From contig CALHUI010000006.1 in NCBI GenBank assembly GCA_938039675.1, forward strand, positions 1-64,000: DNA of 64,000 nucleotides, in the 5' to 3' direction. The position numbers were made by a program, and so were the translations under genes. The DNA is from an uncultured Cytophagales bacterium (GTDB lineage: Bacteria; Bacteroidota; Bacteroidia; Cytophagales; Thermoflexibacteraceae). Numbering within the stretch: the stretch's first letter is position 1; each line of letters starts with the position of its first letter. Shown here one piece after another: positions 232 to 62,568 of this stretch. The notes under the pieces are model-generated. The model was given only the letters and a program-made list of their open reading frames with translations. It did not search any database and was not told the origin of the DNA.

Positions 232-1770
232 TTAAGTCAATTTTTCTCCCAGCCAGCGTCCCAAAGCTACGGCCGGTGTAAGCAACATGCCGCCGCAAAA
301 TACGTTGCCTGTTGTTGCGCCTGCACCCAGTATTTCGCCAACGGCATATAGGCCTTCAATGGGTTTGCCTGCTTTGTTTAATACTTGTAATACTCCGTTC
401 GTATGTAATCCTCCAAACGAGACAAGGCAGAAACCGTAAGTCAGCAGTGCGTAAAAGGGTGCTTGTTGCACGGGTAATTGTAGATTTTTCCTGCCAAACA
501 GTTCATCATTTCCTTTTTGCACTGCCTCATTGTATTGTGCAATGCTGTTCAGCAAAGCATTTTCGGGCAGTCCTGTTTTATGTGCCAGTTCGCTGATAGT
601 ATCGGCTTTCCAAAGGCACTGCCCTTTTTCGGCCTCCTCACGGATTTTTTCGACAGACCATGGCAGAACGAGGGATGCTCCTGCCGTGAGTGCTGTTTCG
701 TCAAAAATTAGCCAGCATTTTTGGTCGGGTTGTGCGGCGATGGCTTTTTCGCGCCTGTCCACCTCAGGTTCATCTTCGGCCATAAAGCGCTGCCCGTTAG
801 CATTAACATATACCTCGCGGGGGGGTCTTGTTGCGGGGCTGGAAATTCTTGCCCATGCCGTCCAAAAATCGGCACGCCCCGACTGCGGTTGCAGTTCTAT
901 CCCGCCAATGGTAAAGCCGTGTTTTTCTGCATTGCGGAAAGCCGCCCCTATTTCCATTGCCGCCTGAATACCTTCGCCCTGCGAACTGATACGCGCACTG
1001 CTGATGAGCCGCTTCACATTTGGCGTTACCTGTCGGAAAAAAGTGGGGTTGGCAGCATAGCCACCGGTAGCTAATACGGTATTGCGGGCAAATACCTTTT
1101 CCGTGCGACCGTTTTTATGCTGCACGACTGCGCCGCTCACTTTGCTGGCTTGAACTATCAGACGGCTCAAGGTAGTTTCTGTTAATAGTACGATATGCCC
1201 GCTTTGCAGGTGTTTTTCCCAGAGCGGCAGCAGCGTTTTTAACAGCGACTTGCCTGCATCTTCACCGGGTTTGGCGGGGTTGTAATCGGTTTTGCCCCAA
1301 TAGGTGCGGGCTCGGCTGTAAGCAGGATGGTTATAAACTACTGCCGGTGCTTCATCGGCCATCGGGTAGCCGACGCTTTCCAGCCAGTCTATCAGGCGCG
1401 GGGCTTCTGTAACAGCCAGCTTCACGATTGCGGGGTCGGCTGTGCCGTTGCTCAATCGCATGACTTCCTTAAAATGCTCCTCGGGGCTGTCTGTAATGCC
1501 TTTACTACGTTGGAGGCGTGTTCCAGCGGCACTCATTTGTCCGGCAGTGATGTTGAGTGTTCCGCCGATTTTACTGTCCTTTTCCACCACCAATACCCTT
1601 AGCCCGCGTTCAGCCGCTCCAATGGCACAAGGCATACCTGCCGAACCTGCACCAATAACGAGCACATCATAGCGCAATGCAGGTTTGCGTCGGGCACTGC
1701 TCAGTAGCATCTTAGCACTGATAATAGCAGATAAACGAAACAGAAAGCGGCGGCGGTTTTCTTTATTCAT
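232..1770 (-). CDS. FAD-binding dehydrogenase, fumarate reductase/flavocytochrome c flavoprotein family, with Tat-like N-terminus
   Basis: A 512-residue flavoprotein. The dinucleotide-binding GAGSAG motif is at about residues 40-45, a GG followed by ITAGQMSAAG comes next, and the C-terminal FAD motif includes GLYAVGEILGAG. Family members reduce or dehydrogenate alpha,beta-unsaturated acids or 3-ketosteroids; the substrate cannot be told from sequence. The N-terminus has RRRFLFR (residues 6-12), which resembles a Tat signal, so a periplasmic location is possible, although the following hydrophobic stretch is short. I chose the ATG at 1770; an upstream in-frame start at 1860 would run up to the divergent gene and adds non-conserved residues. 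No partner heme or membrane subunit lies nearby. Confidence 0.75.
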   Translation of the reverse strand: MNKENRRRFLFRLSAIISAKMLLSSARRKPALRYDVLVIGAGSAGMPCAIGAAERGLRVLVVEKDSKIGGTLNITAGQMSAAGTRLQRSKGITDSPEEHFKEVMRLSNGTADPAIVKLAVTEAPRLIDWLESVGYPMADEAPAVVYNHPAYSRARTYWGKTDYNPAKPGEDAGKSLLKTLLPLWEKHLQSGHIVLLTETTLSRLIVQASKVSGAVVQHKNGRTEKVFARNTVLATGGYAANPTFFRQVTPNVKRLISSARISSQGEGIQAAMEIGAAFRNAEKHGFTIGGIELQPQSGRADFWTAWARISSPATRPPREVYVNANGQRFMAEDEPEVDRREKAIAAQPDQKCWLIFDETALTAGASLVLPWSVEKIREEAEKGQCLWKADTISELAHKTGLPENALLNSIAQYNEAVQKGNDELFGRKNLQLPVQQAPFYALLTYGFCLVSFGGLHTNGVLQVLNKAGKPIEGLYAVGEILGAGATTGNVFCGGMLLTPAVALGRWLGEKLT

Positions 1771-1877
1771 ACAAAGTGTGCTAAATTTGCATGGAAATCT
1801 ATTCAATTCGCCGCATAAAACCTTTATTTTCAGATAGCTGTTGGATGGGCGACTTGTCATGCTGAAAGTCCTGACAT

Positions 1878-42933: not shown

Positions 42934-43734
42934 TTACTTGCCCAACTCAATAGCGCGCTGCCAAGCTGCGTGCAGGCCGTCGCCTATCAGGCTGCGCAGG
43001 TCGTGTGCGTGAAACCGGTGCAAAGCGGCTTCGGTTGTGCCTCCGCGAGAGGCTACTTTGCCTATCCAGTCGCTGCAACTGAGGTTATAGGTATTCAACA
43101 GGTGTACAGCACCCATAAAAGTCTGTTCTACCATCATTTCGGCCTGTACTTGGGTAAACCCCATTTCTATAGCGGTTGCAATCATCGCATCCATGAAATA
43201 GAAAACATAGGCAGGGCCGCTGCCCGAAATAGCCGTAACGGCATCCAACTTATTTTCATCGTCAAAATACAGCGTTTTACCGGTTGTATTTAACAGGTTT
43301 TGGATATTAAAGACTTCTTCTTTGCTAACCGCATCGGTAGAAGTAAAGCCCGTCATCCCCATCCCTATCTGGGCGGGTAAATTGGGCATGGCACGTACGA
43401 TTTTAGGCGAGGGTACTGCCTCTGCAATGCTTTGCATCTTAACCCCTGCCATAATGGAAAGAATAATTTGGTGCGGCTTTACTAATGGTGCCAGCCTTGG
43501 AAACAGCGCTTTTGTATCTTGAGGTTTAATCGCCAGAATAATCACGTCCATTTCGCCTACGTAGTCACCAACCTCAAAAAATACATTTTCAAAGCCCAGT
43601 GATTTAAAAAAGGTTACTTTTTCAGGATAATGTTCCAAAATATATAGGTCTTCCTTTGAGATGGCGTGATTGGCTATAAAGGCATCTGCATAGGTTTTAC
43701 CCATATTGCCGCCGCCTGCAATGAGTATTTTCAT
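42934..43734 (-). CDS. proC: Pyrroline-5-carboxylate reductase
   Basis: Reduces P5C to proline with NAD(P)H, the last step of proline synthesis. The product is 266 residues, the usual size. It has the Rossmann start MKILIAGGGNMGKTYADAFI, VIILAIKPQD, ILSIMAGVKMQSIAEAV, VRAMPNLPAQIGMGMTGF and the P5CR signature beginning AISGSGPAYVFYFMDAM, with GGTTEAAL toward the end. The ATG at 43734 is clear; the longer in-frame reading runs through the CBS promoter. It is divergent from the CBS gene across about 75 bp. Confidence 0.95.
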   Translation of the reverse strand: MKILIAGGGNMGKTYADAFIANHAISKEDLYILEHYPEKVTFFKSLGFENVFFEVGDYVGEMDVIILAIKPQDTKALFPRLAPLVKPHQIILSIMAGVKMQSIAEAVPSPKIVRAMPNLPAQIGMGMTGFTSTDAVSKEEVFNIQNLLNTTGKTLYFDDENKLDAVTAISGSGPAYVFYFMDAMIATAIEMGFTQVQAEMMVEQTFMGAVHLLNTYNLSCSDWIGKVASRGGTTEAALHRFHAHDLRSLIGDGLHAAWQRAIELGK

Positions 43735-43779
43735 AGAAATGCAATGGTTCGAACAACCAAAAATAGCAGAAAAACCGAG

Positions 43780-43787
43780 TAACTTTG
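43780..43787 (+). promoter_or_regulatory. Promoter -7 element of the cystathionine beta-synthase gene
   Basis: TAACTTTG is a perfect TAnnTTTG, 23 bases before the ATG at 43811. Confidence 0.6.
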
Positions 43788-43810
43788 TTTTTAACTTTCT
43801 AAATCGACAC

Positions 43811-45184
43811 ATGAAGTACTATCAGTCTATTATCGATACTATCGGACATACGCCGCTCATTAAGCTCAACAAGGTTACGCAAGGCATCAAAGGCACGGTG
43901 CTTGCTAAGGTAGAGTATTTTAATCCGGGCAACTCTGTAAAAGACCGCATCGCCTTGCGCATGATTGAAGATGCCGAGCGCGAAGGCCGCCTCAAACCGG
44001 GCGGAACAATTATTGAAGGTACTTCCGGTAATACAGGAATGGGGCTTGCACTCACTGCCATTGCCAAAGGCTACAAATGTATTTTCACCGTTTCCGACAA
44101 GCAATCGCAGGAAAAAATCAACATTTTGCGTGCCTTAGGCGCAGAGGTAGTAGTTTGCCCTACCAACGTAGAACCCGATGACCCCCGTTCTTACTATTCG
44201 GTGGCGCGTCGCCTGAACCAAGAAATTCCTAACTCGATTTACCCCAACCAGTACGACAACCTCTCTAATACGGCGGCGCACTACGCAACCACAGCCCCCG
44301 AAATTTGGGAAGATACCGAAGGCAAAATCACGCACCTTGTGGCGGGCGTAGGCACGGGCGGCACTATTTGCGGCACTTCCAAGTATTTAAAAGAACGCAA
44401 CCCTAAGTTAGTTACTATTGGTATTGACACTTACGGTTCTGTTTTCAAGAAATACAAAGAAACAGGCATTTTTGACGAAAAAGAAATTTATCCGTACCTG
44501 ACCGAAGGCATCGGCGAGGATATTTTGCCCAAAAACGTGGACTTTGATGTGATTGACTTGTTTATCAAAGTAACCGATAAAGATGCGGCCATCATGGCGC
44601 GTCGTATGGCACGTGAGGAAGGCTTGTTTATTGGTTGGAGCTGTGGTTCTGCTGTGTATGGCGCATTGGAATATGCCCGCCAACATCTCGAAGAAGATGA
44701 TGTGATGGTGGTAATTCTGCCCGACCACGGCACGCGCTATCTCAATAAAATTTACAACGATGTATGGATGAAAGACCATGGATTCTTGGAACAGCGTCAT
44801 TTTGCTACTGCGCGCGACATTATCCGTGCCCGCAATGGTGCTACTCCGCTGATTACTGTGAACAAGAACGATACCATTGGTTTTGCAATTAAAATGCTCA
44901 ATAAGGCGGGTATTTCGCAGTTGCCGGTAACAGACGGGGACAATATTGTCGGCAGCCTAAACGACAGCACGCTGTTGAATATGTTGATTGATAACCCTTC
45001 GGCCAAAGATTTGCCGGTTGCAGAAGTAATGAGCCCTCCTTTCCGCTTTGTAGGCATTGACAATACGGTGGATACGCTTTCAGGATTGATAGATAAAGAA
45101 AATAAAGCCCTGCTGGTTCGCGATGAAGCCAATCAGGTGCATATCATTACCCAACACGATTTGCTGGTAGCGCTGACCAATTAA
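43811..45184 (+). CDS. cbs: Cystathionine beta-synthase with C-terminal CBS domains
   Basis: A 457-residue PLP enzyme that condenses serine (or a related donor) with homocysteine to cystathionine, or forms cysteine and H2S. The fold type II domain (about 1-330) has IGHTPLIKLNKV, the PLP-lysine region NPGNSVKDRIA, the phosphate loop GTSGNTGMGLAL, VAGVGTGGTICGTSKYL and GWSCGSAVYG. Two CBS domains follow (about 335-455; ISQLPVTDGDNIVG, ALLVRDEANQVHIITQHDLL) and probably respond to SAM or nucleotides. The CBS domains separate it from plain cysteine synthase. It ends in the convergent gap that carries repeat copy C. Confidence 0.92.
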   Translation: MKYYQSIIDTIGHTPLIKLNKVTQGIKGTVLAKVEYFNPGNSVKDRIALRMIEDAEREGRLKPGGTIIEGTSGNTGMGLALTAIAKGYKCIFTVSDKQSQEKINILRALGAEVVVCPTNVEPDDPRSYYSVARRLNQEIPNSIYPNQYDNLSNTAAHYATTAPEIWEDTEGKITHLVAGVGTGGTICGTSKYLKERNPKLVTIGIDTYGSVFKKYKETGIFDEKEIYPYLTEGIGEDILPKNVDFDVIDLFIKVTDKDAAIMARRMAREEGLFIGWSCGSAVYGALEYARQHLEEDDVMVVILPDHGTRYLNKIYNDVWMKDHGFLEQRHFATARDIIRARNGATPLITVNKNDTIGFAIKMLNKAGISQLPVTDGDNIVGSLNDSTLLNMLIDNPSAKDLPVAEVMSPPFRFVGIDNTVDTLSGLIDKENKALLVRDEANQVHIITQHDLLVALTN

Positions 45185-45404: not shown

Positions 45405-47483
45405 TTAATAATGCAAATCAATCACAATATTGCGGTAGTTGTCCATGCGGATGGTGCTGTTGCTGCCAATAATGGTGGTTGATTCCATTTCCTCAATTAC
45501 GGCAGGGCCGGCGAAACTGTCGCCCGGGTTGAGTAGGTAACGGGCATACACGCGGCATTGCTGCGGCACAGGCTTGCCACCTTCCATGAAATACAGCGTT
45601 CGTTCGCCGTTGAGCGCTTGGCTGCCCGTTGTGCTGACCACCTGCCGCGGCTGAATCTGCGGTACGGGTGCACTCACTACTACGCGCCATGTTACGGTTT
45701 CCATGCCGATGTCATCAATGCTTCTGCCATAGCGCAGTTCATATTCGGCAATAAATCGCTTGTGGATTTCGGGAATGCTGTCCACACTCAATGTGCCGTT
45801 GGGTATGCGCACTGAAATTTCATGTCCTTGACCTGTGTAGCGCATATCGGCAATGCGGGTAATTTGAGCTTCTGAGCGGCTAATACCCGACTTTTCAAGG
45901 AATTTGAAGCCTTCTTCTTCCATTTCCGCCAGCATGGTATTGAGTTTGTGCCAATCCATTTCGTCAATCGGGCAAACCAAGCTGCGGATTTGTTCACTTG
46001 CCACAGGCGATACCAGAAAGCCCAGCGCCGATACCACACCTGCCCCGACGGGAATAATCAGTTGGGGTGAATTGAGCAAGCGTGCCACCTGAAAAGCGTG
46101 CACAGGACCCGCTCCGCCAAAAGCGAGCATAGAATAGCCGCGAGGGTCGCGCCCTTTTTCCAAAATATGCACACGAGCGGCATTTGCCATGTTCTCGTTC
46201 ACAATGAGATGCACGCCCATGGCAGCCTCTTCTATGCTGATTCCCAGCGGTTGGGCAATGTGCGTTTCAATGGCTTTACGGGCAGCGGCGATGTCTAACT
46301 GCATGGTTCCACCCAGAAAATAATCGGGATTGAGGTAGCCCAGCACAAGGTCGCAGTCAGTAACGGTGGGTTTTTCGCCGCCGCGCCCGTAGCAGGCAGG
46401 GCCGGGCTCAGAGGCTGCACTTTCCGGTCCGACTTTGAGCAGCCCGAGATTGTCTATGTGTGCAATGCTGCCGCCTCCCGCGCCAATCTCAATCATGTCA
46501 ATCACGGGAATGCGAACGGGCAAACCACTGCCTTTTTTGAAGCGACGCACACGGGCAGCCTCAAATTGGTTGGTAATTTCGGGTTCGTTGTGGTTAATGA
46601 GTGAGGCTTTGGCAGTCGTTCCGCCCATGTCAAATGCCAGCAAGTCGGGCTTGCCTATCAGTTTGCCGTAGAAAACCCCTGCCATAGTACCGCCTGCGGG
46701 GCCTGATTCGAGCAACTGAATGGGCGTGTGGCGCGCACCTTCGATAGTGGTTAAGCGGCCACTGGAAATCATAATGTTAATAACGCCGTTAAAGCCCAAA
46801 TCGCGCAACCGTTTTTCCAAGTGCCTGAGGTATTGGTCGGTAATAGGCTGTACGTAGGCATTCATTGCCGTTGCCGAACTGCGCTCATACTCGCGAATTT
46901 CGGGCATCACTTCGCAGGAAAGGCTCACGTAAATATCGGGGTGGTGCTTTCTGATGTATTCGCCGACGGCCTTTTCGTGCGTAGGATTAACAAAAGAGTG
47001 CAGAAAACAAACGGCAATGGACTTGACTCCTGCCTGTATTAATGCATCAACCACAGTGGCAATTTCGTCGGTAGCAATGGGTGATACAATTTCACCCTTG
47101 TAGTTAATGCGTTCGGTAATGCCTTTGCGCAGATTGCGCGGTACAAGTGGTTCAGGCACAGACAGTTTAATATCGTAAATATCGTAGCGCAGCTCGCGAC
47201 CGATTTCCAGTACATCTTCAAAACCTTTGGTAGTAATCAGACCTGTTAGTGAGCCGCGCCGCTCAATTACGGCGTTTGTTACCAGCGTTGTGCCGTGTAC
47301 AATTGTGCTGACTTGGCTTGCTTGCACACCCACACGCGCTAGCAGTTCGGTTGTTCCTTTGATAATACCATTGGAGGGGTCGTCGTAGGTAGTGAGTGTT
47401 TTGCCAAAGTGTAATTCGCCCGTTGCTTCATTGAGTAGTACAAGGTCGGTAAAAGTGCCGCCAATGTCTATGCCAAGTTTCAT
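45405..47483 (-). CDS. Hydantoinase/oxoprolinase A-like protein (HyuA family)
   Basis: A 692-residue protein of the hydantoinase A/5-oxoprolinase/acetone-carboxylase beta family. The Hydant_A_N domain has LGIDIGGTFTDLVL, VHGTTLVTNAVIERRG and PRNLRKGITERI. The ASKHA-type ATPase core has LLAFDMGGTTAKASL, EIGAGGGSIAHID and SMLAFGGAGPVHA. The C-terminal region ends with an acyl-site domain (FAGPAVIEEMESTTII). These proteins use ATP to open lactam rings (hydantoins, 5-oxoproline) or to activate ketones. The usual HyuB partner is absent, which is unusual. It is the last gene of a nine-gene minus-strand cluster, 19 bp after the SDR. Confidence 0.85.
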   Translation of the reverse strand: MKLGIDIGGTFTDLVLLNEATGELHFGKTLTTYDDPSNGIIKGTTELLARVGVQASQVSTIVHGTTLVTNAVIERRGSLTGLITTKGFEDVLEIGRELRYDIYDIKLSVPEPLVPRNLRKGITERINYKGEIVSPIATDEIATVVDALIQAGVKSIAVCFLHSFVNPTHEKAVGEYIRKHHPDIYVSLSCEVMPEIREYERSSATAMNAYVQPITDQYLRHLEKRLRDLGFNGVINIMISSGRLTTIEGARHTPIQLLESGPAGGTMAGVFYGKLIGKPDLLAFDMGGTTAKASLINHNEPEITNQFEAARVRRFKKGSGLPVRIPVIDMIEIGAGGGSIAHIDNLGLLKVGPESAASEPGPACYGRGGEKPTVTDCDLVLGYLNPDYFLGGTMQLDIAAARKAIETHIAQPLGISIEEAAMGVHLIVNENMANAARVHILEKGRDPRGYSMLAFGGAGPVHAFQVARLLNSPQLIIPVGAGVVSALGFLVSPVASEQIRSLVCPIDEMDWHKLNTMLAEMEEEGFKFLEKSGISRSEAQITRIADMRYTGQGHEISVRIPNGTLSVDSIPEIHKRFIAEYELRYGRSIDDIGMETVTWRVVVSAPVPQIQPRQVVSTTGSQALNGERTLYFMEGGKPVPQQCRVYARYLLNPGDSFAGPAVIEEMESTTIIGSNSTIRMDNYRNIVIDLHY

Positions 47484-47501
47484 GGATTTTCCGATAAAAT
47501 A

Positions 47502-48341
47502 TTAATGATATTCTTCCCCGCCGCTAACGTTCATTGCCTCGCCGGTGATGTAAGCCGCCATGTCTGAGGCAAGGAAAAGGCAGGCTTTGGCGATGTCTTC
47601 CACAAATCCGGTGCGCCCCAGCGGGTTGCGGTCGCGGATGCCTTGCAGGTAGGTTTCGTAGTCCAAGCCGAACTTTTCGCTGAAAAACTTATTCTGCCAA
47701 TGCCCCAGCCCCGTGGTGATATGGTTCGGGCAAACTGCATTGACGCGAATACCGAACTTGCCCAATTCAACGGCATTGGAGCGTGTTAGACCGACTAAGC
47801 CATGTTTGGAAGCCGTATAAGCCGCCGCATACGGAAAGCCCGATTTAGCTGCCTGACTGGCAATATTGATAATGTTGCCGCCTCTGCCTTGTTCTATCAT
47901 GCGGATGGCTGCCTGTTGGCTGCACAGGAACGCACCTTTCAGGTTTACGTCTAATACTGCATCCCAACTTGACTCCTTAAATTCGGTAAAAGGCTCCATC
48001 AAGTAGCCTACACCTGCATTGTTAATCAGTACGTCAATACTGCCAAAGGTTTCTACAGCCTTGTCTATCAGGTTTTTACAGTCGGCGGCTATTCGCACAT
48101 CGCACGGTACGGCAATGGCTTTTCCGCCACGAGCGATACATTCTTCCGCAATGCCGTTCATTTCATCGGTTACGCCGATGTGTTCTGCACTGAATTCGCT
48201 GCCTTTGGGCTGTCCAAGGTCGGAAATGACAATATTGCAACCCATTTCCGAGAAGGCATAGGCAATAGCCTCACCAATGCCCTTGCGCCTGCCCGAACCG
48301 GTGATGACTACTGTTTTGCCTGTTAAGTCATTCATTTTCAT
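47502..48341 (-). CDS. Short-chain dehydrogenase/reductase
   Basis: A 279-residue classical SDR. It has the cofactor loop VVITGSGRRKGIGEAIAYAF, the acidic residue in VISDLGQ that favours NAD(H), the NNAG in VLINNAGVGYL, and catalytic Ser, Tyr and Lys in NIASQAAKSGFPYAAAYTAS followed by KHG. The end reads ITGEAMNVSGG. The insertion RRKG in the glycine loop and an extra acidic stretch after the second strand are uncommon. It probably oxidises a hydroxy intermediate in the pathway encoded by the cluster. It lies 19 bp upstream of the HyuA-like gene. Confidence 0.88.
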   Translation of the reverse strand: MKMNDLTGKTVVITGSGRRKGIGEAIAYAFSEMGCNIVISDLGQPKGSEFSAEHIGVTDEMNGIAEECIARGGKAIAVPCDVRIAADCKNLIDKAVETFGSIDVLINNAGVGYLMEPFTEFKESSWDAVLDVNLKGAFLCSQQAAIRMIEQGRGGNIINIASQAAKSGFPYAAAYTASKHGLVGLTRSNAVELGKFGIRVNAVCPNHITTGLGHWQNKFFSEKFGLDYETYLQGIRDRNPLGRTGFVEDIAKACLFLASDMAAYITGEAMNVSGGEEYH

Positions 48342-48374
48342 ATGCTTGCATGTTTTAACTTACAAGAAAAGTTT

Positions 48375-48779
48375 TCAACTTTTCAATAACCAGTTCTTTG
48401 CGTCTTCCTTATTGGAAAAATACTTGACCGACATGTTACCCGATTTTTCAAGTTTGCTGTTTGCTATTTTGATGGAAAACTCACTGAAAAGATTTTTGGC
48501 AGGAATGATGGCTACTTTTCTGCTGTCGGGCATTGCTTTGTCAAATGCCGGCTGCCATTCGGTAAAAAACCATTTGTGGTCGCTGGGGTGCAGGTTCATG
48601 TTGCGCTGGTCGAGTAGCCATAAAATTATGCGATTGGCAATTGCAAATTCGCCTGCCTTCGATACAGCAGTTCTGAACTCTTCCGATTTGGTAATGTTAC
48701 CAAAATAGGAAGTTTCAATCATCTGATTGTCGTCGTTAAACAACACTTCAATCGTTGTACCTTTAAAAATCGTTTGCAT
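48375..48779 (-). CDS. STAS/SpoIIAA-like small protein
   Basis: A 134-residue soluble protein. The segment order is alternating beta and alpha, with IILWLLDQRNMNLHPSDHKW in the middle, SRKVAIIPAK, and the ending MSVKYFSNKEDAKNWLLKS. That ending matches the protein at 8951-9364. The family is often labelled STAS/SpoIIAA-like; the molecular function is unknown. It sits inside the catabolic cluster between the HapK-like and SDR genes, with gaps of 58 and 33 bp, so it is probably co-transcribed. Confidence 0.55.
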   Translation of the reverse strand: MQTIFKGTTIEVLFNDDNQMIETSYFGNITKSEEFRTAVSKAGEFAIANRIILWLLDQRNMNLHPSDHKWFFTEWQPAFDKAMPDSRKVAIIPAKNLFSEFSIKIANSKLEKSGNMSVKYFSNKEDAKNWLLKS

Positions 48780-48836
48780 GAGAAGTTAACAGCAATGATA
48801 AGTAGCCATGTTGCAAAAATTAGTATGTATGCCTGC

Positions 48837-49148
48837 CTAAATTTCATCGGTAAGTATGAAAACCGGATTGTCCGCAAGTTGCTGAAATTTTGCGGGAATT
48901 TCTGCCATTTTAGGCTCTGCAGCCATATCTGCTACCAAACTGTCCACCGATTCAAAATGAATCACCTCAAAGTATTTGTATGGAGGTGCAGCATCCGAAC
49001 CGAATAAGCCTGATGCTTTGTAAACCTTAAAATCGCTGACGGATTTCAAGCTCTTAACGGTCGGGATGTCTAATTCTTTGGCGAAAGCCTCATATTCAGC
49101 CTCCGATACACCGGCTTTCAGGTTGAAAAGTACGATTAGTGTTTTCAT
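48837..49148 (-). CDS. HapK-like (REDY-like) dimeric alpha/beta-barrel protein
   Basis: A 103-residue protein beginning MKTLIVLFNLKAGVSEAEYE, then LDIPTVKSLKSVSDFKVYKA, LFGSDAAPPYKYFEVIHFES and ending ADNPVFILTDEI. This pattern matches the REDY-like/HapK family, a small ferredoxin-like dimer first noted next to prodigiosin-type genes. Its activity is not known; relatives with this fold act as isomerases, monooxygenases or EthD-like helpers. It lies between the aldolase and STAS-like genes in the cluster. Confidence 0.7.
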   Translation of the reverse strand: MKTLIVLFNLKAGVSEAEYEAFAKELDIPTVKSLKSVSDFKVYKASGLFGSDAAPPYKYFEVIHFESVDSLVADMAAEPKMAEIPAKFQQLADNPVFILTDEI

Positions 49149-49202
49149 ATTTTGTGTAATTTTTATTTGTGTTTTGCAATAAGGACAGGGTACACCCTTC
49201 CC

Positions 49203-49967
49203 CTACAAGTTTCCTGCACCTGCAAAGGCTTTTGCTGCGCCGCCCAACATTCCGCCCGTATAGTTCATAATGATTTTTGCACCTTTGGTAATCAGTGTTT
49301 TTGCCTGTTCGGCATTGCCTGCCGTTGTACCGATGATGAGGTTATGGGCAAGCACAATTTCAAAAATGCGGTCAATGGTTTGCTGCACTTCGGGGTGTGC
49401 CGGACCATCGTAGAAGCCCATGCTCATTGCCAAGTCGCGGGGGCCGATGATGAATCCGTCCACGCCGGGCACTTTGCACAATTGCTCCAAATTTTCAACA
49501 GCTTGCATATCTTCTACCTGCGGCAGCACCAGCGTTTGCTCGTTGGCAAAATGCACATAGTCTGCCTGCGGCATTGACCCCAGCCCAAAATCCCACGAAC
49601 GAACGGGACCTAAGCCGCGCTCGCCTACAGGTGGATATTTGACGGCTTTGACCAGTGCCTCGACCTCTGCAATGGTACTCACGCCGGGCATCATTACACC
49701 CATAACTCCCGCATCCATGAATTGCAGGATGAGTTTGGCATCGGTGCTGCGGATGCGTGCCATCGGGGTGATCCCCGTTGCCTCGCAAGCGCGTATGATT
49801 TCCAACGCCTGCGCTACGGTAATGGCTCCGTGTTCGCAGTCAATGATATAATAATCAAGCCCTGCATGGGCGCAGATTTCGGCTGTCATTGGGTCGGCAA
49901 AGTTGGAAATAACGCCTAAGGCGGCCTTTCCTTGTTGTATTTTGGCTTTTATTGCGTTTGTCTTCAT
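49203..49967 (-). CDS. HpcH/HpaI-family class II pyruvate aldolase
   Basis: A 254-residue metal-dependent aldolase. It has the N-terminal ALGVISNFADPMTAEICAHA, the catalytic region YYIIDCEHGAIT with the general-base His, the substrate-binding Arg in PMARIRSTDAKLI, the metal ligands Glu in PQVEDMQAV and Asp in IIGPRDLAMSMG, and GLGPVR. This family cleaves 4-hydroxy-2-oxo acids to pyruvate and an aldehyde, or the reverse. It has the expected length and intact active-site residues. In the cluster it follows the LeuD-like subunit after about 98 bp, which contains repeat copy D. Confidence 0.88.
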   Translation of the reverse strand: MKTNAIKAKIQQGKAALGVISNFADPMTAEICAHAGLDYYIIDCEHGAITVAQALEIIRACEATGITPMARIRSTDAKLILQFMDAGVMGVMMPGVSTIAEVEALVKAVKYPPVGERGLGPVRSWDFGLGSMPQADYVHFANEQTLVLPQVEDMQAVENLEQLCKVPGVDGFIIGPRDLAMSMGFYDGPAHPEVQQTIDRIFEIVLAHNLIIGTTAGNAEQAKTLITKGAKIIMNYTGGMLGGAAKAFAGAGNL

Positions 49968-50014
49968 GCTGAGGTTCTTAGCGGTTTGCGATTGTAGATT
50001 GGTGGTTGGGAATC

Positions 50015-50048
50015 AAACCTGACAAGTTTTTGGAAACCTGTCAGGTTT
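50015..50048. repeat. Dispersed palindromic repeat, hairpin part only (copy D)
   Basis: AAACCTGACA (50015-50024) and TGTCAGGTTT (50039-50048) are perfect inverted arms, with an inner GTTT/AAAC. No A/T tail follows. It lies between the LeuD-like and aldolase genes and could act as an intercistronic hairpin. Confidence 0.75.
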
Positions 50049-50064
50049 TTTGTCTAAAAATTCA

Positions 50065-50607
50065 TCAGCGCAGCATGTGCGCAGTGCCGTCGGCGATTTT
50101 TTGTTTGACAAACTCAACCAAGCCGCCAGCCTCGGCTACTTCCAACACGAAAGGTGCCAGCGGTGCGGTTTCGCGTGTTTCGCCCGTGCGCAGGTTTTTA
50201 ACTGTGTTGGTTTCCATGTTGAACTCCAACTCATCGCCGGTTTGGCAAATGGAAACCAAGTCTTTCACGGTAATGAAAGGCAGCCCGTAGTTGGTGGCAT
50301 TGCGGAATTGCAAGCGCGAAAAGGAATCGGCGAAAACAGCTTTGATACCTGCGCCCATCAGCCCTGTTACAACGTGCTCAATGCTTTTGCCGCCGCCGGC
50401 AAAGTTGTGCCCAGCTACGATGAAGGTGTAGCCCGCATCTTTAAAGGCATTTTCTTTGTCAAATTCAGGCGAAACGCCGCTCATGATGAACTTGCTGTTG
50501 AGTGCCTTGTCAATAGGGTCTGTCCAGAATTTTTGTACGACAATATCGTATGCCATCACGTAGCCCGAAGCTACCCAGCATTTGCCGCGAATAATTTTGT
50601 CTGACAT
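50065..50607 (-). CDS. LeuD-like small subunit of an aconitase-superfamily hydro-lyase, altered substrate loop
   Basis: A 180-residue protein of the swivelling domain family. It has VAGHNFAGGGKSIEHV and AVFADSFSRLQFRNATNYGLP, which align with the LeuD/homoaconitase small subunit. The usual substrate loop NFGCGSSREH is replaced by NFAGGGKSIEH, one residue longer and without the Ser-Ser-Arg trio that binds the substrate carboxylate in isopropylmalate isomerase and aconitase. It therefore likely works on a different acid. It starts 7 bp after the triple-repeat membrane protein gene; the large subunit is the gene before that. Confidence 0.8.
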   Translation of the reverse strand: MSDKIIRGKCWVASGYVMAYDIVVQKFWTDPIDKALNSKFIMSGVSPEFDKENAFKDAGYTFIVAGHNFAGGGKSIEHVVTGLMGAGIKAVFADSFSRLQFRNATNYGLPFITVKDLVSICQTGDELEFNMETNTVKNLRTGETRETAPLAPFVLEVAEAGGLVEFVKQKIADGTAHMLR

Positions 50608-50614
50608 AGTTTTT

Positions 50615-51928
50615 TCATTTTACAATTTCAAAATTTCTTTCTGCCATTAGCAGATTGCCCGCCCACAATTCCATCACATACTTGCCTGCTGCTGCGTCGT
50701 TAGGCTCTACTAATTTGCGATAAGCCCACCAGTCGGTGCCGCCTTTGTTGCTCAGGGCTTGGTCTATGCTGCGGATGATGTTGCCTTTGCTGTCCTTGAC
50801 TTTCCACGTCAGTACGACTTTGCGCTGGTTAATCTTAGGCCAGAATACGTAGCCGTAAACAGGTGATGTACTTTTGAAAATAGAAACACGGTCGGCAGGT
50901 TTGTCGTCTTTCATGCCGGTAGTCATGATGACCTCTGCATCCCCTACTCCAATGTCAAAAGAACGCTGATTGATAACCTCGCCGTTCACCGACAGTTTGA
51001 CTGTCCATTTGCCTGTTTTGATAGAGCGATAATCAATTCTCATCGGGCTGTACACGTTATAAATTGCTGCATTGGGCTTCATATCCAAACTGTTGGAATA
51101 GGACATCTCGCCGTCGGGGTCGTAGTATTGCCAATTTACCTTAAAGTTCTGCCCGGGTGTCATATCCCGAAAGGCAACGTGGCAAATCGCTATTGTATCG
51201 GTCAGTGCTTGAAAACCCGATAAATTTTGCACAGGCTTGTAGTTATCATCCACTTGCCTTGTAAGCGTCATTTTTGCGTCATAAGTGCCTTTGGCAAATA
51301 TGAACCTGCGCTCTGCAACGGGCTTATCAAAGATTTTCAACACGGCTTTCCACTCACCCAAAGGCATGGTCGGCGCAAAACTGAACAGTTGGTAAGCTAC
51401 AGCCCCCTCCTGATTATTGGCATAAACAATTTTTTGGGCAATAATCGGGTCGCTGCCATTGGGCGGGTACAGCTCCCATGCTACTGCATCTCCATACTTG
51501 CCTTTAATCAGCGCATGGGCAAAGAATGCCCCTTTGGTAGTTGTAACCGTATCGGTAGTTGCCAAGGGCATATAACTTGTGCCGTCTAAGGTAGTGGCAA
51601 TGGAAATTTTCGTTGTTCCACTGAATGTACTCGGACGAAATATCCAGACAATCAGTGCGACAACGGCAACTCCGGCAGCTATCCACATCCACATTCTTTT
51701 TCGCTGTTCGGCACGCACTGCTTCAGCTTCTTTCTCCTGAAGCATTTGTTGATAGGCTTCTTCCAACTTATCGGAAGGAATGCCCATTTCGGCGGCTACT
51801 TGTTTAACTGCCTCAAAGTCATGCTCATGCGTATCGGCATGCATATGCTCCTGATTGGTAAGGTAGTAAGCCTTTTCAATCAGTTTGTTGAAATCCTTGT
51901 CTGAAATTTTTCGCACAGGTTTAGCCAT
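50615..51928 (-). CDS. Single-pass membrane protein with three tandem Ig-like repeats, unknown function
   Basis: A 437-residue protein with a cytoplasmic N-terminal part of about 78 residues (KISDKDFNKLIEKAYYLTNQ, a His-rich stretch, and a helical segment), one transmembrane helix at about 80-97, and a large periplasmic part. The latter holds three similar units of about 85-100 residues; each ends with a GxWx or GKYx strand, L-x-x-x followed by R-x-F-x-I/F (AERRFIF, NQRSFDI, AERNFEI). This suggests three beta-sandwich domains. I do not recognise the family. Its place between the large and small subunit genes of the hydro-lyase is unusual, and it overlaps neither. Confidence 0.7.
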   Translation of the reverse strand: MAKPVRKISDKDFNKLIEKAYYLTNQEHMHADTHEHDFEAVKQVAAEMGIPSDKLEEAYQQMLQEKEAEAVRAEQRKRMWMWIAAGVAVVALIVWIFRPSTFSGTTKISIATTLDGTSYMPLATTDTVTTTKGAFFAHALIKGKYGDAVAWELYPPNGSDPIIAQKIVYANNQEGAVAYQLFSFAPTMPLGEWKAVLKIFDKPVAERRFIFAKGTYDAKMTLTRQVDDNYKPVQNLSGFQALTDTIAICHVAFRDMTPGQNFKVNWQYYDPDGEMSYSNSLDMKPNAAIYNVYSPMRIDYRSIKTGKWTVKLSVNGEVINQRSFDIGVGDAEVIMTTGMKDDKPADRVSIFKSTSPVYGYVFWPKINQRKVVLTWKVKDSKGNIIRSIDQALSNKGGTDWWAYRKLVEPNDAAAGKYVMELWAGNLLMAERNFEIVK

Positions 51929-52012
51929 GGCAGTCAGTGTTTATCATCAACCGAATACAATAGTTGAGGATAAGGAAAAGGATTGCAATTTTATCATGCC
52001 GAACCGAGCCGC

Positions 52013-53278
52013 TTACAGCAATCGGGGGTCGGAGATAACACCCGATAAGGCAGAGGCAGCTACTACTGCAGGGGAAGTCAAATAAATTTGTGCGTTTTTG
52101 CTGCCCATGCGGCCTTTCATGTTCCGATTGCCCGCGCTGAGTACAATATCGCCGTCGCCTGCTACGCCCGTGTGAATGCCCGCACAAGAGGCGCAACTCG
52201 GAGTATCTACTGCCACGCCCGCTTCCACGAGGTCGGTGATGTAGCCTGCCCGCAGCGCATCTAAGTAAACCTGCTGACTGGCTGGGACCAAAATAAAGTT
52301 TACGTCGGGGTGTACTTGTTTACCTTTCAGAATTTGCGAAAGGACGGCGATGTCTTCCAGCCTGCCATTGGTACAAGTGCCGACAAAGGCTTTATTGAAC
52401 TTCCTGCCAACTACTTTTTCCACTGGTACAACGTTATCCAACTTATCGGGCAAGGCTACCGTCGGGCCAATGTTGGTAACATCCACCTCATAAACTGCAT
52501 CGTAATGTGCATCGGGGTCGCTGGCAATCATTTCCCAGTTGCCTTTTTGCACGGGGCGCAGGTAATCAATGGTTTTTTGGTCGGGTGCAATAATGCCGTT
52601 TTTCGCGCCCAAATCTACGGTCATATTGCAGAGCGTCATGCGGCCTGCAATATCCAAGGCCTCAATGGCAGGGCCGGCGTATTCCAATGCTTTGTAAATC
52701 AGGTGGCCGTTCCAGTGCATCATGCCCATAATGTGCAAGCTAAGGTCTTTTGCCATCACATAGGGCTGCCATTTGCCTGTGATATGAAACTTTACCGACT
52801 CCGGCACGCGAAACCAGCACTTGCCGATAGCCATTGCCACGGCAGCATCGGTTACGGAAACGGCATTGCCAACTGCACCAACAGCTCCGTAGGTATTGGC
52901 GTGGCTGTCCGTTCCAACGCTGATTTTGCCGGGTAATACGTGGCCGTTCTCCACCATAATCTGATGGGCAATGCCTTGTCTGCCCAAATCGTAGAAATAT
53001 TTGATGTTGTGTTCCTTAACAACCTGCCGCCATTCGTTCAGCATGGTAGCAAAAGCAGGCGTAGGGGGGGGGACCAAATGGTCGGAAACACAGATAACTC
53101 GCTCACGGTCAAATACTTCTGTTTTGCCTAATTCGTGTAGGCTTTTAAAGGTAGATTTGCCGAGATAGTCCATTGTCATAACGGAAAAAACATCTGTCCA
53201 GACCAATTCTCCCGGTTTCACCTTGTCGCGGCCACTGTTGTAGGCCATAATTTTTTCAGTGATGGTCATTCCTGCCAT
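52013..53278 (-). CDS. LeuC-like large subunit of an aconitase-superfamily hydro-lyase
   Basis: A 421-residue protein of the archaeal-type LeuC/HacA branch. All three 4Fe-4S ligands are seen: Cys in GTCTNGRLEDI and the pair in PSCASCAGIHTG. Other landmarks are ISVGTDSHANTYGAVGA, VWTDVFSVMTMD and GNRNMKGRMGS. It should dehydrate and rehydrate a hydroxy di- or tricarboxylic acid, together with the LeuD-like subunit two genes downstream. No leuA, leuB or other leucine gene is near, and the partner's substrate loop is altered, so isopropylmalate is unlikely. The natural substrate is unknown. Confidence 0.85.
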   Translation of the reverse strand: MAGMTITEKIMAYNSGRDKVKPGELVWTDVFSVMTMDYLGKSTFKSLHELGKTEVFDRERVICVSDHLVPPPTPAFATMLNEWRQVVKEHNIKYFYDLGRQGIAHQIMVENGHVLPGKISVGTDSHANTYGAVGAVGNAVSVTDAAVAMAIGKCWFRVPESVKFHITGKWQPYVMAKDLSLHIMGMMHWNGHLIYKALEYAGPAIEALDIAGRMTLCNMTVDLGAKNGIIAPDQKTIDYLRPVQKGNWEMIASDPDAHYDAVYEVDVTNIGPTVALPDKLDNVVPVEKVVGRKFNKAFVGTCTNGRLEDIAVLSQILKGKQVHPDVNFILVPASQQVYLDALRAGYITDLVEAGVAVDTPSCASCAGIHTGVAGDGDIVLSAGNRNMKGRMGSKNAQIYLTSPAVVAASALSGVISDPRLL

Positions 53279-53516
53279 AGTATGCAGTGGGGTTTAGTTT
53301 TTTTCATATTTACTTTTTGCTGAGCAACGTCGCCGCAAAATGCGCTATGAGAGTTTATGCAACTTTCCTGCGTGCGCATATGACAAACAGTTGAGCAAAG
53401 GAATCACATTACATCAGAGCACATAGCACACGTCATTACACTACGACTTTTGCTGATTTTTTGCGTCCGAAATTTCGACCTGTTTTGCCCATTTACGGCT
53501 CCGCACCTAATCTCTG

Positions 53517-54017
53517 TCAGGCATTTACGGTTGCTTCCCGCACTTCGCTTGGAATATTGTACTGCCCGATGGCATCATAGTCGGTTTGTTCTTGTGTGGA
53601 AACTTGCCGTTCTTCAATCATTGTCAGTCCTTCAAAGCGTCCGTTGTGGCTCCATTGCCAAACGCGCATCCGATGGCCGGGACCGATGGTGTTGATAATT
53701 TCGTAGAGTTTGCTGCCCGGGTCGGCCTTGTAAGTCCACTCCAAAATAATGGAGTCGCCACTTTCCCATGCGGTACCGTAAATACGGTCATTGTCGAAGG
53801 TCATAATACCGGCTTCGTTGAAATAGTTTTTGCCGAAGTTGTGTCGCTCATAGCGACCGTTGTCCCAAAAGTATTCGTTGAGTTGTTCCCAACAGTTGCC
53901 GTTTAGGCGTAGTGTCAAACGGCTTTTGTGATGGTCGAGCACCTTCCCGTCAGGAGCAATGCGTGTGTAGGTGCCTTCCCATACGCCGGTGTGGAGCGGA
54001 AATAGTTTCAGATTCAT
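53517..54017 (-). CDS. Lipocalin-like protein (DUF3598-type)
   Basis: A 166-residue soluble protein rich in beta strands and Trp/Tyr: LHTGVWEGTYTRIAPDGKV, LTLRLNGNCWEQLNEYFWDN, GIMTFDNDRIYGTAWESGDS and MRVWQWSHNGRFEGLTMIEE. The pattern resembles the fatty-acid-binding/lipocalin-like DUF3598 domain, and the assignment is tentative. It has no signal peptide. It is the first gene of the minus-strand cluster but is separated from the LeuC-like gene by about 240 bp, so it may be a separate transcript. Function unknown; it may bind the hydrophobic substrate of the pathway. Confidence 0.6.
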   Translation of the reverse strand: MNLKLFPLHTGVWEGTYTRIAPDGKVLDHHKSRLTLRLNGNCWEQLNEYFWDNGRYERHNFGKNYFNEAGIMTFDNDRIYGTAWESGDSIILEWTYKADPGSKLYEIINTIGPGHRMRVWQWSHNGRFEGLTMIEERQVSTQEQTDYDAIGQYNIPSEVREATVNA

Positions 54018-54308: not shown

Positions 54309-55067
54309 TCAACACATCCCGCGCCCAATGAGGTTATCGCAAAAGATGGCCGTAGCAATGCCTGCATTCAGCGATTCGGCATTGCCGATGCGTGGAATGG
54401 TGAGCGCATGGGTAATCATTGGCAGCAGGTCGTCGGCAATGCCTTGCGACTCGTTGCCAATCAGGATAGCCCCTTTGACTTTTGCTTGAAATTGGTGGAT
54501 GTTGCTACCGTTGAGCAAAGCGCCGTATACGGGTGACGGGTAGATGCTGAAAAATTGTTTCAGGTCTGTATAGAAAGGTTTTACACGCAAGAAAGACCCC
54601 ATGGAAGCGGCTATTACTTTGGGGTTGTACCAGTCGGCGGTGGTAGGTGAGCATACAATGCGGCGGATACCGTACCAGTCGGCAATGCGAATCATAGTGC
54701 CTAAATTGCCCGGGTCGCGGATGTCGGAAAGTGCCAGCAGCCACTCGTCGGTCGGTATATTATTGCTTGGTGCAGGTATTTCTACCACTGCCAGCGCAGC
54801 GTTGTTGCTTTGAATCGTTCCTGCCTGCTCCAACTCGTCAGGTGAGGCAGTTTCCAATAAAAAACGAACTTTGTGCTGACCTATTGCAGTAGCAATGAAC
54901 TCTTCGGTGGCAAATACAGCTACTATCCGAAAACCGTTCGGTGTACCTTCTGCCATGAGTTCGGAAACGCTTTTAGCCCCTTCTACCAGAAAAAGTTGCT
55001 CTTCCTGTCGGTATTTTTTTTGGTGCAGCGAGCGGCACAGTTTGAGCCATTTTTTAGAGATTGCCAT
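54309..55067 (-). CDS. TrmH/SpoU-family RNA 2'-O-methyltransferase
   Basis: A 252-residue SPOUT methyltransferase. The N-terminal substrate-binding domain (RSLHQKKYRQEEQLFLVEG) is followed by the trefoil-knot catalytic domain with ALSDIRDPGNLGTMIRIADW, LIGNESQGIADDLL and IPRIGNAESLNAGIATAIF (motifs 1-3 of the family). It probably 2'-O-methylates rRNA or tRNA; the exact target is not clear. I start at the ATG at 55067 (MAISKKWLKL); an upstream start adds nine residues. It is divergent from fmt across 77 bp that hold a 21-bp palindrome. Confidence 0.9.
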   Translation of the reverse strand: MAISKKWLKLCRSLHQKKYRQEEQLFLVEGAKSVSELMAEGTPNGFRIVAVFATEEFIATAIGQHKVRFLLETASPDELEQAGTIQSNNAALAVVEIPAPSNNIPTDEWLLALSDIRDPGNLGTMIRIADWYGIRRIVCSPTTADWYNPKVIAASMGSFLRVKPFYTDLKQFFSIYPSPVYGALLNGSNIHQFQAKVKGAILIGNESQGIADDLLPMITHALTIPRIGNAESLNAGIATAIFCDNLIGRGMC

Positions 55068-55098
55068 TGTGCAAAATTGCCCGACTTCTGCCAAAATA

Positions 55099-61479: not shown

Positions 61480-62568
61480 TTATTGAGTGTTCATGCTGTC
61501 GGCTATCAATTGATGAAAATGATGCACGCCCGTTTCATAGCGCGGCGAGTAGCGCCCCGACTTGTAGAAGCGTGAGCGAACCCCCAGTTGCACGCTTTCC
61601 ACCACTGCCTCATCTTCGCGCTCTACCTTGTCGATCTGGGCGGCTGTTTGCTGACTAAATCGCTGAGGGTCATACACATAGGTGATAAAACGCACCTTGC
61701 ATAAGTCGGGCTGCAAGGGTTTGACCACATTCACGGACAGCCCCCAAGGATAGAAATTCAGCATCAAATTCGGGAAAATCCAGAAGTAATAGGCGGCTAT
61801 TTCCTTGCCTTTGTCGGGGTGTCCTTCGGGCAGTGCAAAACTGTCCGAACCTTTGCTTGCATAGCCTACTTGCAAATTCATAAAACCATGAATTTCAGTA
61901 GTATATGTAGCAAAATCCAGCAGTACGTTTAGGTCGGGATGCACGAAGGGGATATGGAAACCTTCCAGATAATTTTCACAATACAGTGCCCAGTGTGCTC
62001 GCACGAGGTAGTCGCGAGAGGTCAGCGGCTCGTAGCGGAAACGCTCAAAGTCCAGAAAACCGATGCGCCTGTCCATTTCGGCAAGCACGGGTGCTAAATC
62101 CCACTGCGGATTGAGTGCGGCAAACAAAAACCGATGCCATTTTTGCAGCGGCACCTGCGCAAGGTTATCGGCTTCCGACGGGAAATCGCAAACGTCTTTA
62201 AATTCGGGCATGTGTTCAAACTTCCCGTTGAGGGCAAACCGCCGCCCATGATACCCGCAGATGATTTTGCAGCACTTGCCCGACCGCTGCACCAACACCT
62301 TGCCCCGATGCGTGCAAACATTGCTCAAACAGCGAATTTCGCCCTGTTCGTCGGAGGCAAGCAGCAGCGGTTCGTTCAAATAGCCGTCTAACAGCATCAG
62401 TGGCTGTACGTGCTGCGGCAGTTGCACCGCGGCATCATCGCCGAGCCATTGCCACGAGCGGGCAAATATTTTCTCTTTCGCCGCCTCAAAGTACAACGGT
62501 TCGGTATAAAACTGCGTAGGGAGGGTGTGTGCCTTGCAAATATCCGAAGAGATGTTAAAAATTTCCAT
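61480..62568 (-). CDS. Rieske-type aromatic-ring/quaternary-amine oxygenase alpha subunit
   Basis: A 362-residue non-heme iron oxygenase. The Rieske 2Fe-2S ligands are in CTHRGK and CGYHGRRF. The mononuclear iron site has the conserved NYLEGFHIPFVHPDL pattern with two histidines, and a later Asp is expected from DFATYT onward. The length and motif spacing resemble choline/carnitine monooxygenase-type subunits more than benzoate or biphenyl dioxygenases, but the substrate cannot be fixed. No ferredoxin reductase or small subunit is nearby, so the electron donor must be encoded elsewhere. It has a perfect -7 element 40 bases upstream. Confidence 0.85.
   Translation of the reverse strand: MEIFNISSDICKAHTLPTQFYTEPLYFEAAKEKIFARSWQWLGDDAAVQLPQHVQPLMLLDGYLNEPLLLASDEQGEIRCLSNVCTHRGKVLVQRSGKCCKIICGYHGRRFALNGKFEHMPEFKDVCDFPSEADNLAQVPLQKWHRFLFAALNPQWDLAPVLAEMDRRIGFLDFERFRYEPLTSRDYLVRAHWALYCENYLEGFHIPFVHPDLNVLLDFATYTTEIHGFMNLQVGYASKGSDSFALPEGHPDKGKEIAAYYFWIFPNLMLNFYPWGLSVNVVKPLQPDLCKVRFITYVYDPQRFSQQTAAQIDKVEREDEAVVESVQLGVRSRFYKSGRYSPRYETGVHHFHQLIADSMNTQ

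Follow-up and report, generated by a model that had tools for sequence, protein, structure and literature searches.

A conserved gene cluster with an altered LeuD-like subunit as the possible core of a cyclic-amide degradation pathway in Bacteroidota and other bacteria

Introduction

A stretch of 64,000 nucleotides from an uncultured Cytophagales bacterium (contig CALHUI010000006.1 of assembly GCA_938039675.1), referred to below as the window, carries at positions 45405-54017 a run of nine open reading frames (ORFs), all on the minus strand. Their products resemble, in order, a lipocalin, the aconitase-family subunit LeuC, a triple-repeat membrane protein, the small subunit LeuD, an HpcH-type aldolase, HapK, a STAS-domain protein, a short-chain dehydrogenase (SDR) and HyuA. 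The locus raises the question of whether these genes serve one pathway and, if so, what compound that pathway handles. The preliminary description had regarded them as a single nine-gene cluster for the degradation of an organic acid or lactam. The ORF list of the window agrees with the gene order and coordinates given there, and the statement that most gaps are short also holds, since seven of the eight gaps calculated from the ORF ends (18, 33, 57, 54, 97, 7, 84 and 238 bp) are below 100 bp. The Pfam families above their cut-offs in the cluster are Hydantoinase_A, adh_short, SpoIIAA-like (marginally), HapK, HpcH_HpaI, Aconitase_C, Aconitase and DUF3598_N.

The conserved operon consists of the lipocalin, LeuC, LeuD, HpcH, HapK, SDR and HyuA genes together with HyuB, which in the window's own genome (3.28 Mb) is encoded elsewhere. 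Its gene order is shared by distantly related bacteria from water and hot springs. Rather probably, these genes encode the central part of a route for breaking down a molecule that contains a cyclic amide, that is, a lactam, an imide or a cyclic ureide. The set has the same order in Bacteroidota, Kapaibacteria and Marinimicrobia and persists as a set even where it is scattered. This suggests that many lineages use a compound for which no breakdown route has yet been described. No paper turned up in a full-text literature search made for this combination of genes, in line with the earlier remark that no described pathway has it.

Conservation of the operon

A LeuD scan of the genome collection gave 45 loci. 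Twenty-eight of them (L065-L092) contain a LeuD of at least 60% identity and are termed orthologous here, while the other 17 contain a distant LeuD only (31-40%) and serve as controls. The orthologous loci come from Bernardetiaceae, Saprospiraceae, Maribacter, Sediminibacterium and other Chitinophagales, a Cytophagales metagenome-assembled genome (MAG), Kapaibacterium and Marinimicrobia. Five are shorter than 20 kb, and consequently the counts of gene presence are lower bounds. LeuC is found in 26 loci, and the remaining two begin inside or just before LeuD. HpcH, HapK, SDR and HyuA are each present in 24, although in different sets of 24, HyuB is present in 21 and the lipocalin in 20. All seven of LeuC, LeuD, HpcH, HapK, SDR, HyuA and HyuB are held by 18 loci, and they stand in exactly this order on one strand in 17, which span Saprospiraceae, Maribacter, Sediminibacterium and other Chitinophagales, Kapaibacterium and Marinimicrobia. 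Locus L082 has all seven, but with HyuA and HyuB reversed.

Relatives of HpcH, HapK, SDR, HyuA and HyuB occur in none of the 17 control loci, 14 of which are shorter than 20 kb and 12 of which continue for 5 kb or more beyond LeuD, into the region expected to hold the partners. Because the order is kept in other families and phyla, the cluster goes beyond chance, and a chance neighbourhood was rejected on the synteny together with the controls. Synteny in relatives, which the preliminary description had proposed to look for, was thus found, and its proposal stands in this respect. The nine-gene unit itself is to be narrowed: seven of its genes are conserved, whereas the STAS-like and triple-repeat genes each occur in one of the 28 loci, in both cases within the window's own genus. 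They were rejected as pathway members, as no orthologous locus outside the genus has them, and in genome G023 LeuC and LeuD are direct neighbours with no triple-repeat gene between them. The STAS-like gene reaches its Pfam family only marginally (25.6 bits, gathering cut-off 25) and in G081 matches as two separate pieces (L049 9509-9855), consistent with a dispensable gene. For the triple-repeat protein the sole Pfam match, to DUF3859, stays below threshold (20.2 vs 24); its three C-terminal segments look similar by eye, and segment-against-segment scores are at most 0.4 bits.

The cluster-type LeuD is rare. At E 1e-15 or better, 5 of the 291 genomes from the order have it, and at E 1e-40 or better 6 of 395 from the phylum; both figures include the window's own genome. 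The 44 plasmid records with a match are all below 60% identity. In G081, which belongs to the window's genus, LeuC/LeuD and HpcH-HyuA lie on separate contigs. Pairwise distances of the seven core proteins correlate (r 0.59 to 0.90, with no correction for species relatedness); these correlations fit joint inheritance, and shared ancestry would give the same.

Catalytic residues of the core enzymes

The nearest solved relative of HyuA is the N-methylhydantoinase 7hk5 (438 bits), followed by 6yra, labelled a 5-oxoprolinase (350 bits). The ATP motifs are kept, with DxGGT in 25 of 27 aligned rows (the other two are gapped) and the DMGGT-type motif in all 27. HyuB, of 541 residues, lies outside the window at G000:C3:41875-43497 of the same genome, and three other genomes of the genus have orthologues of 98, 97 and 87% identity, also on contigs different from that of HyuA. 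In G259 and G271 the two genes are close, with a single ORF, acetyltransferase-like by eye, between them. The Asp-His-Asp-His metal tetrad of HyuB (D43, H104, D107, H129) is kept in 26/26 rows. Motifs of this kind in the ATP subunit and the metal tetrad of CapB are described for caprolactamase in PMC8453981. The likeness to caprolactamase CapAB and N-methylhydantoinase consists in the presence of both subunits in the genome and in the retained ATP motifs and metal set. Unlike CapAB, HyuA and HyuB are accompanied by LeuCD, HpcH and SDR, and they score far below the CapA/CapB equivalog cut-offs; a caprolactam route, which is of the aminotransferase type, was rejected on these cut-offs. HyuA and HyuB are best read as a putative ATP-dependent cyclic-amide hydrolase, acting on a lactam, imide or ureide. 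G271 yields no LeuD match at the E 1e-15 level. There, HpcH, HyuA, the acetyltransferase-like ORF and HyuB form a unit of their own (L052 4927-10074), so HyuAB and HpcH can travel together without LeuCD, as a separable module.

LeuD is an aconitase relative without the usual serine and arginine. Its residues 69-78 read FAGGGKSIEH where aconitases carry FGCGSSREH, and in the alignment with 3vba there is an extra Ala after the Phe, with Lys at the first Ser, Ser at the second and Ile at the Arg. The loop AGGGKSIEH is found in 37 ORFs of 60-100% identity, some of which may be one gene counted in overlapping loci, and a GxGSSRE-type loop in 27 ORFs of 27-40%. Catalysis in aconitase uses the first Ser as base, and one carboxylate of the substrate is bound by the Arg. 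Given these roles, the change of the loop suggests that the enzyme probably takes an acid lacking the Arg-bound carboxylate, such as an amide or alkyl-substituted acid, and it may use the Lys as base.

In LeuC, the cluster cysteines C302, C362 and C365 are present in 30/30 rows. Position 222 is Asp in 33 close ORFs (71-100% identity) versus Glu in 16 distant ones (30-42%), and 13 more do not show the motif. The pair thus resembles LeuCD, homoaconitase and DmdAB in the three cysteines and the other active-site residues checked, one excepted, and differs from them in the LeuD loop and in the Asp at LeuC position 222. LeuC scores above the subfamily cut-offs of hacA_fam and IPMI_arch, and LeuD falls below that of LEUD_arch (92.3 vs 108.95). 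The equivalog cut-offs of the leucine isomerase are missed by both subunits (LEU2 421 vs 611; leud 83.6 vs 245.9). Because LeuD carries FAGGGKSIEH in place of FGCGSSREH, the cluster LeuC and LeuD are not the leucine enzymes, which agrees with the preliminary description. A role in leucine synthesis was also rejected because a second, long-form LeuC is encoded elsewhere in the genome, on C3 (L055 10031-11272), with no LeuD adjoining; a LeuD-like gene with a canonical loop is on G000:C15.

The aldolase keeps D43, E45, H46, R71, E152 and D178 in 30/30 rows, with Q150 in 17/30 only. In the HpcH/HpaI family, His and Arg belong to the active site, and Glu and Asp bind the metal. The protein is like the class II pyruvate aldolases of this family in its active-site residues and unlike them in falling below the HpaI, GarL-type and rhamnonate-aldolase equivalog cut-offs, so its substrate is not assignable from those three models. 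The catalytic Ser162, Tyr175 and Lys179 of the SDR are present in 31/31 rows. HapK takes its name from prodigiosin synthesis. In PMC4609964, a REDY-like HapK gene is listed as up-regulated 1.9-fold on a lignin dimer.

Genes outside the cluster

The predicted pathway extends past the cluster to DUF1838, CpeT, a methyltransferase, a CaiB CoA-transferase, an HMG-CoA-lyase-like enzyme and a second LeuCD pair. ORF clustering over the 28 loci gives as recurrent neighbours DUF1838 (17 loci), a TonB receptor (14), a SAM methyltransferase (14) and a small protein without a named family (11), followed by a flavocytochrome-c-like flavoprotein, an MFS transporter, an ADH_N_2 oxidoreductase and a SnoaL-like protein (10 each), CaiB (7) and CpeT (7). 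Wider stretches of ten relatives, several of which also supplied loci to the count above, bring in further genes: a second LeuC/LeuD pair, CN_hydrolase, aldehyde dehydrogenase and an HMG-CoA-lyase-like gene whose 293 bits exceed the cut-off of 246. The C-N hydrolases adjoining the operon in some relatives are CN_hydrolase, allantoinase-like, two PuuE-like and N-carbamoylsarcosine-amidohydrolase-like proteins; the two PuuE-like genes are in two genomes of one genus (G323, G344), and an isochorismatase-family amidase is found in three contexts. The preliminary description was right about the core enzymes, whose families offer ring opening, (de)hydration, oxidation and retro-aldol chemistry, and drew the set too narrowly, as HyuB and several further families lie outside the window.

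In the window's own genome the parts are scattered: an HMG-CoA-lyase-like gene (59% identity) on C26, CaiB (66%) on C33, the methyltransferase (62%) and DUF1838 on C7, and CpeT on C13 next to ORFs named by eye as SusC/SusD-like. HyuA, HyuB, CaiB, the HMG-CoA-lyase-like gene, the methyltransferase, DUF1838 and CpeT all occur in 5/5 LeuD-bearing genomes of the order, largely spread over different contigs. In G271, which lacks LeuD, there is no match for CaiB, the methyltransferase, DUF1838 or CpeT, and the best HMG-CoA-lyase-like match has only 29% identity. The set marks several uncharacterised families, namely DUF1838, DUF3598, HapK and CpeT of non-phototrophs, as likely members of a single pathway.

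The lipocalin matches Pfam DUF3598 with 37.1 bits against a gathering score of 22. Its structure model (pLDDT 92.5) has the fold of BFA1 (Z 16.4, rmsd 2.5, 133 aligned residues) and of the DUF3598 protein 2o62 (Z 14.7, rmsd 2.9, 130 residues), followed by nitrobindins (Z 13.4 to 13.9), a spirocyclase (13.7), the phycobiliprotein lyase CpeS (12.7), fatty-acid-binding proteins (11 to 12) and the bilirubin-binding UnaG (11.4). The model suggests a ligand-binding or cyclase barrel, and the fold is no proof of haem or bilin as ligand. The DUF1838 model (pLDDT 89.8) gives weak matches to BFA1 (Z 8.9), Rv2717c (8.1), the porin-type OpcA (8.1), CpeS (7.8) and DUF3598 (7.6), which are close to what chance commonly gives. 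In the window's genome, the gene for DUF1838 (L129 9014-9922) lies 6-9 kb from ORFs that by eye resemble phytoene synthase and desaturase (L129 116-2522).

Proposed pathway and alternative explanations

In the proposed pathway, HyuA and the separately encoded HyuB would open the ring with ATP. LeuC/LeuD would add water to, or remove it from, the resulting branched acid, the SDR would oxidise an alcohol or reduce a ketone, and the HpcH aldolase would split off pyruvate. HapK and the lipocalin might hold or isomerise an apolar intermediate. We infer the action of these steps on one compound, their order and the substrate class, on the basis of the synteny, the co-occurrence of the scattered parts and the state of the catalytic residues described above. 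Cyclic-amide catabolism accounts best for HyuAB, the extra amidases, the importers and the CoA branch.

A number of observations weigh against this reading. HyuA and HyuB score far below the CapA/CapB equivalog cut-offs of 1000 (549 and 213 bits), so the type of ring is not readable from them, and HyuA-type proteins also occur in carboxylases. CpeT is present in no more than 15 of 26 genomes. Four of the five co-occurrence genomes share one genus, so the co-occurrence reflects few independent events; the fifth, G259, is from another family, and its methyltransferase match reads through one stop. Most named relatives are MAGs. The methyltransferase, the SnoaL-like protein and the barrel proteins would also suit biosynthesis. 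Promoter and terminator scans gave no excess over shuffled sequence (12 vs 12.1 and 12 vs 12.4), and are consequently uninformative on the transcript.

Among more specific substrates, a hydantoin or other cyclic ureide derived from purines, creatinine-like or imidazole compounds has a rather small chance of being correct. It is suggested by N-methylhydantoinase as the solved protein nearest to HyuA, by neighbours in some relatives that resemble N-carbamoylsarcosine amidohydrolase (116 bits), PuuE allantoinase (113) and AllB allantoinase (236, below its cut-off of 358), and by urate oxidase, HIU hydrolase and allantoicase genes beside the cluster on one Marinimicrobia contig (L135 15609-19699). 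However, such neighbours occur in a minority of 32 contexts (allantoinase-like in 8, one of them at 30% identity; N-carbamoylsarcosine-amidohydrolase-like in 3; PuuE-like in 2), and ureide breakdown, which yields glyoxylate or glutamate-type products, is not known to need two LeuCD pairs, HpcH, CaiB and an HMG-CoA lyase. The carbon-chain enzymes would be left unexplained, though the allantoinase-like neighbours would be explained. In the PDB search, N-carbamoylsarcosine amidohydrolase ranked first, with the maleamate amidohydrolase entry 3ot4/3uao lower. Cyclic imide hydrolases may be PuuE-like, a point not borne out by the papers listed. The alternative that the genes make a small molecule is improbable: the methyltransferase, the SnoaL-like protein, the spirocyclase-like barrels and HapK would suit it, but the loci read showed, by eye and with no systematic search, no recognisable polyketide, peptide or terpene synthase, and the amidases, aldehyde dehydrogenase, CoA-transferase, MFS transporters and TonB receptor are in keeping with import and catabolism. 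Still further from being credible is a second isopropylmalate isomerase among chance neighbours, which the subfamily cut-offs passed by LeuC would allow; the long-form LeuC elsewhere, the absence of the SSRE loop from 37/37 close LeuD ORFs and the synteny across phyla all speak against it.

The presence of CpeT, of the phycobilin-lyase family, and of other barrels alongside the operon raises another option, namely that the substrate is a tetrapyrrole fragment from bilins or chlorophyll or haem products cut externally or in the periplasm. Pyrrolinones or dialkylmaleimides would be opened by HyuAB or imide hydrolases, two LeuCD pairs would hydrate the products, and HpcH with the HMG-CoA-lyase-like enzyme would split them to pyruvate. 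This is unlikely. Fifteen of 26 genomes have CpeT. DUF1838 is in 10 of 11, the single miss having no cluster-type LeuD, and among 14 control genomes the two families occur in 1 and 0, respectively. The lipocalin fold is like that of DUF3598, nitrobindin, CpeS and UnaG (Z 14.7 to 11.4), and the DUF1838 model bears a weak resemblance to some of them (Z 7.6 to 8.9). The second LeuCD, with its canonical loop, and the CaiB and HMG-CoA-lyase-like genes also fit. The tetrapyrrole option would in addition account for CpeT, for the barrels and for why two distinct LeuCD pairs are needed. In nicotinate fermentation, 2,3-dialkylmaleates are hydrated by LeuCD-type enzymes; the route of Eubacterium barkeri is alike in having a LeuCD-type dimethylmaleate hydratase followed by a pyruvate-forming lyase, and unlike in that the lyase is of another family; the E. 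barkeri route also includes a cobalamin mutase step. On the other side, no pigment-cleaving oxygenase was recognised among the ORFs examined, where no systematic search for one was made. Haem oxygenase is present in only 5 of 13 genomes and absent from the window's own, and was dropped as a feeder on that count. Barrels of the lipocalin fold also bind fatty acids or act as spirocyclases, porin scores are about as high as lipocalin scores for DUF1838, 11 of the 26 genomes lack CpeT, and the literature on bilin and haematinic acid, among the matches listed, had no such pathway. The full version of this option is quite unlikely and has fold and family resemblance behind it: linear tetrapyrroles, or maleimide and pyrrolinone fragments of chlorophyll, haem and phycobilins, would be mineralised, with CpeT, DUF3598 and DUF1838 barrels capturing and processing the pigment, HyuAB and imide hydrolases opening the rings, the Lys-for-Ser LeuCD hydrating a dialkyl acid, and HpcH and the HMG-CoA-lyase-like enzyme giving pyruvate and acyl-CoA.

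Feature coordinates and flanking genes

The features are collected in Table 1. The cyclic-amide pathway probably has a displaced member at the far end of the window, a flavoprotein whose match in L065 sits 3.4 kb from the lipocalin gene of that locus; related flavoproteins are found in 10 of the 28 loci.

Table 1. Features of the cluster and one distant candidate in the window
Feature	Position	Strand	Basis
HyuA, putative ATP-binding subunit of an ATP-dependent cyclic-amide hydrolase	45405..47483	-	Pfam Hydant_A_N, Hydantoinase_A, Hydant_A_C
SDR, short-chain dehydrogenase	47502..48341	-	Pfam adh_short; catalytic residues kept
STAS/SpoIIAA-like protein, genus-specific passenger	48375..48779	-	Marginal Pfam match; 1/28 orthologous loci
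HapK/REDY-like small protein	48837..49148	-	PF11639, 37.8 bits, cut-off 25; 24/28 loci
HpcH/HpaI-type pyruvate aldolase	49203..49967	-	PF03328; active-site residues; 24/28 loci
LeuD-like small subunit, non-canonical catalytic loop	50065..50607	-	FAGGGKSIEH replaces FGCGSSREH
LeuD Lys74 codon, at the catalytic Ser position of aconitases	50386..50388	-	Alignment with 3vba
Membrane-anchored triple-repeat protein, genus-specific passenger	50615..51928	-	1/28 orthologous loci
LeuC-like large subunit	52013..53278	-	hacA_fam 483.7 bits, cut-off 385.7; three cluster cysteines
DUF3598 lipocalin-type barrel	53517..54017	-	PF12204; model fold
Flavocytochrome-c-like FAD flavoprotein, possible distant pathway member	232..1860	-	74% identity to L065 flavoprotein ORF

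The ORFs flanking the cluster resemble, by eye, a 23S rRNA methyltransferase (54309-55094), a cystathionine-synthase-type enzyme (43706-45184) and a pyrroline-5-carboxylate reductase (42934-43812). A kynurenine pathway next door, suspected from gene sizes, was dropped once the sequences were read. At 61480-62568 (minus strand) an ORF has, by eye, the look of a Rieske-type ring-hydroxylating oxygenase alpha subunit. The ORF at 4542-5375 (minus strand) has a SUMF1 (formylglycine-generating-enzyme-type) look, and a similar-looking ORF is found in a Maribacter cluster (L125 2609-3553). An MFS transporter at 28999-30249 (plus strand) shares 38% identity with a transporter that lies upstream of the Maribacter cluster (L072, L073).

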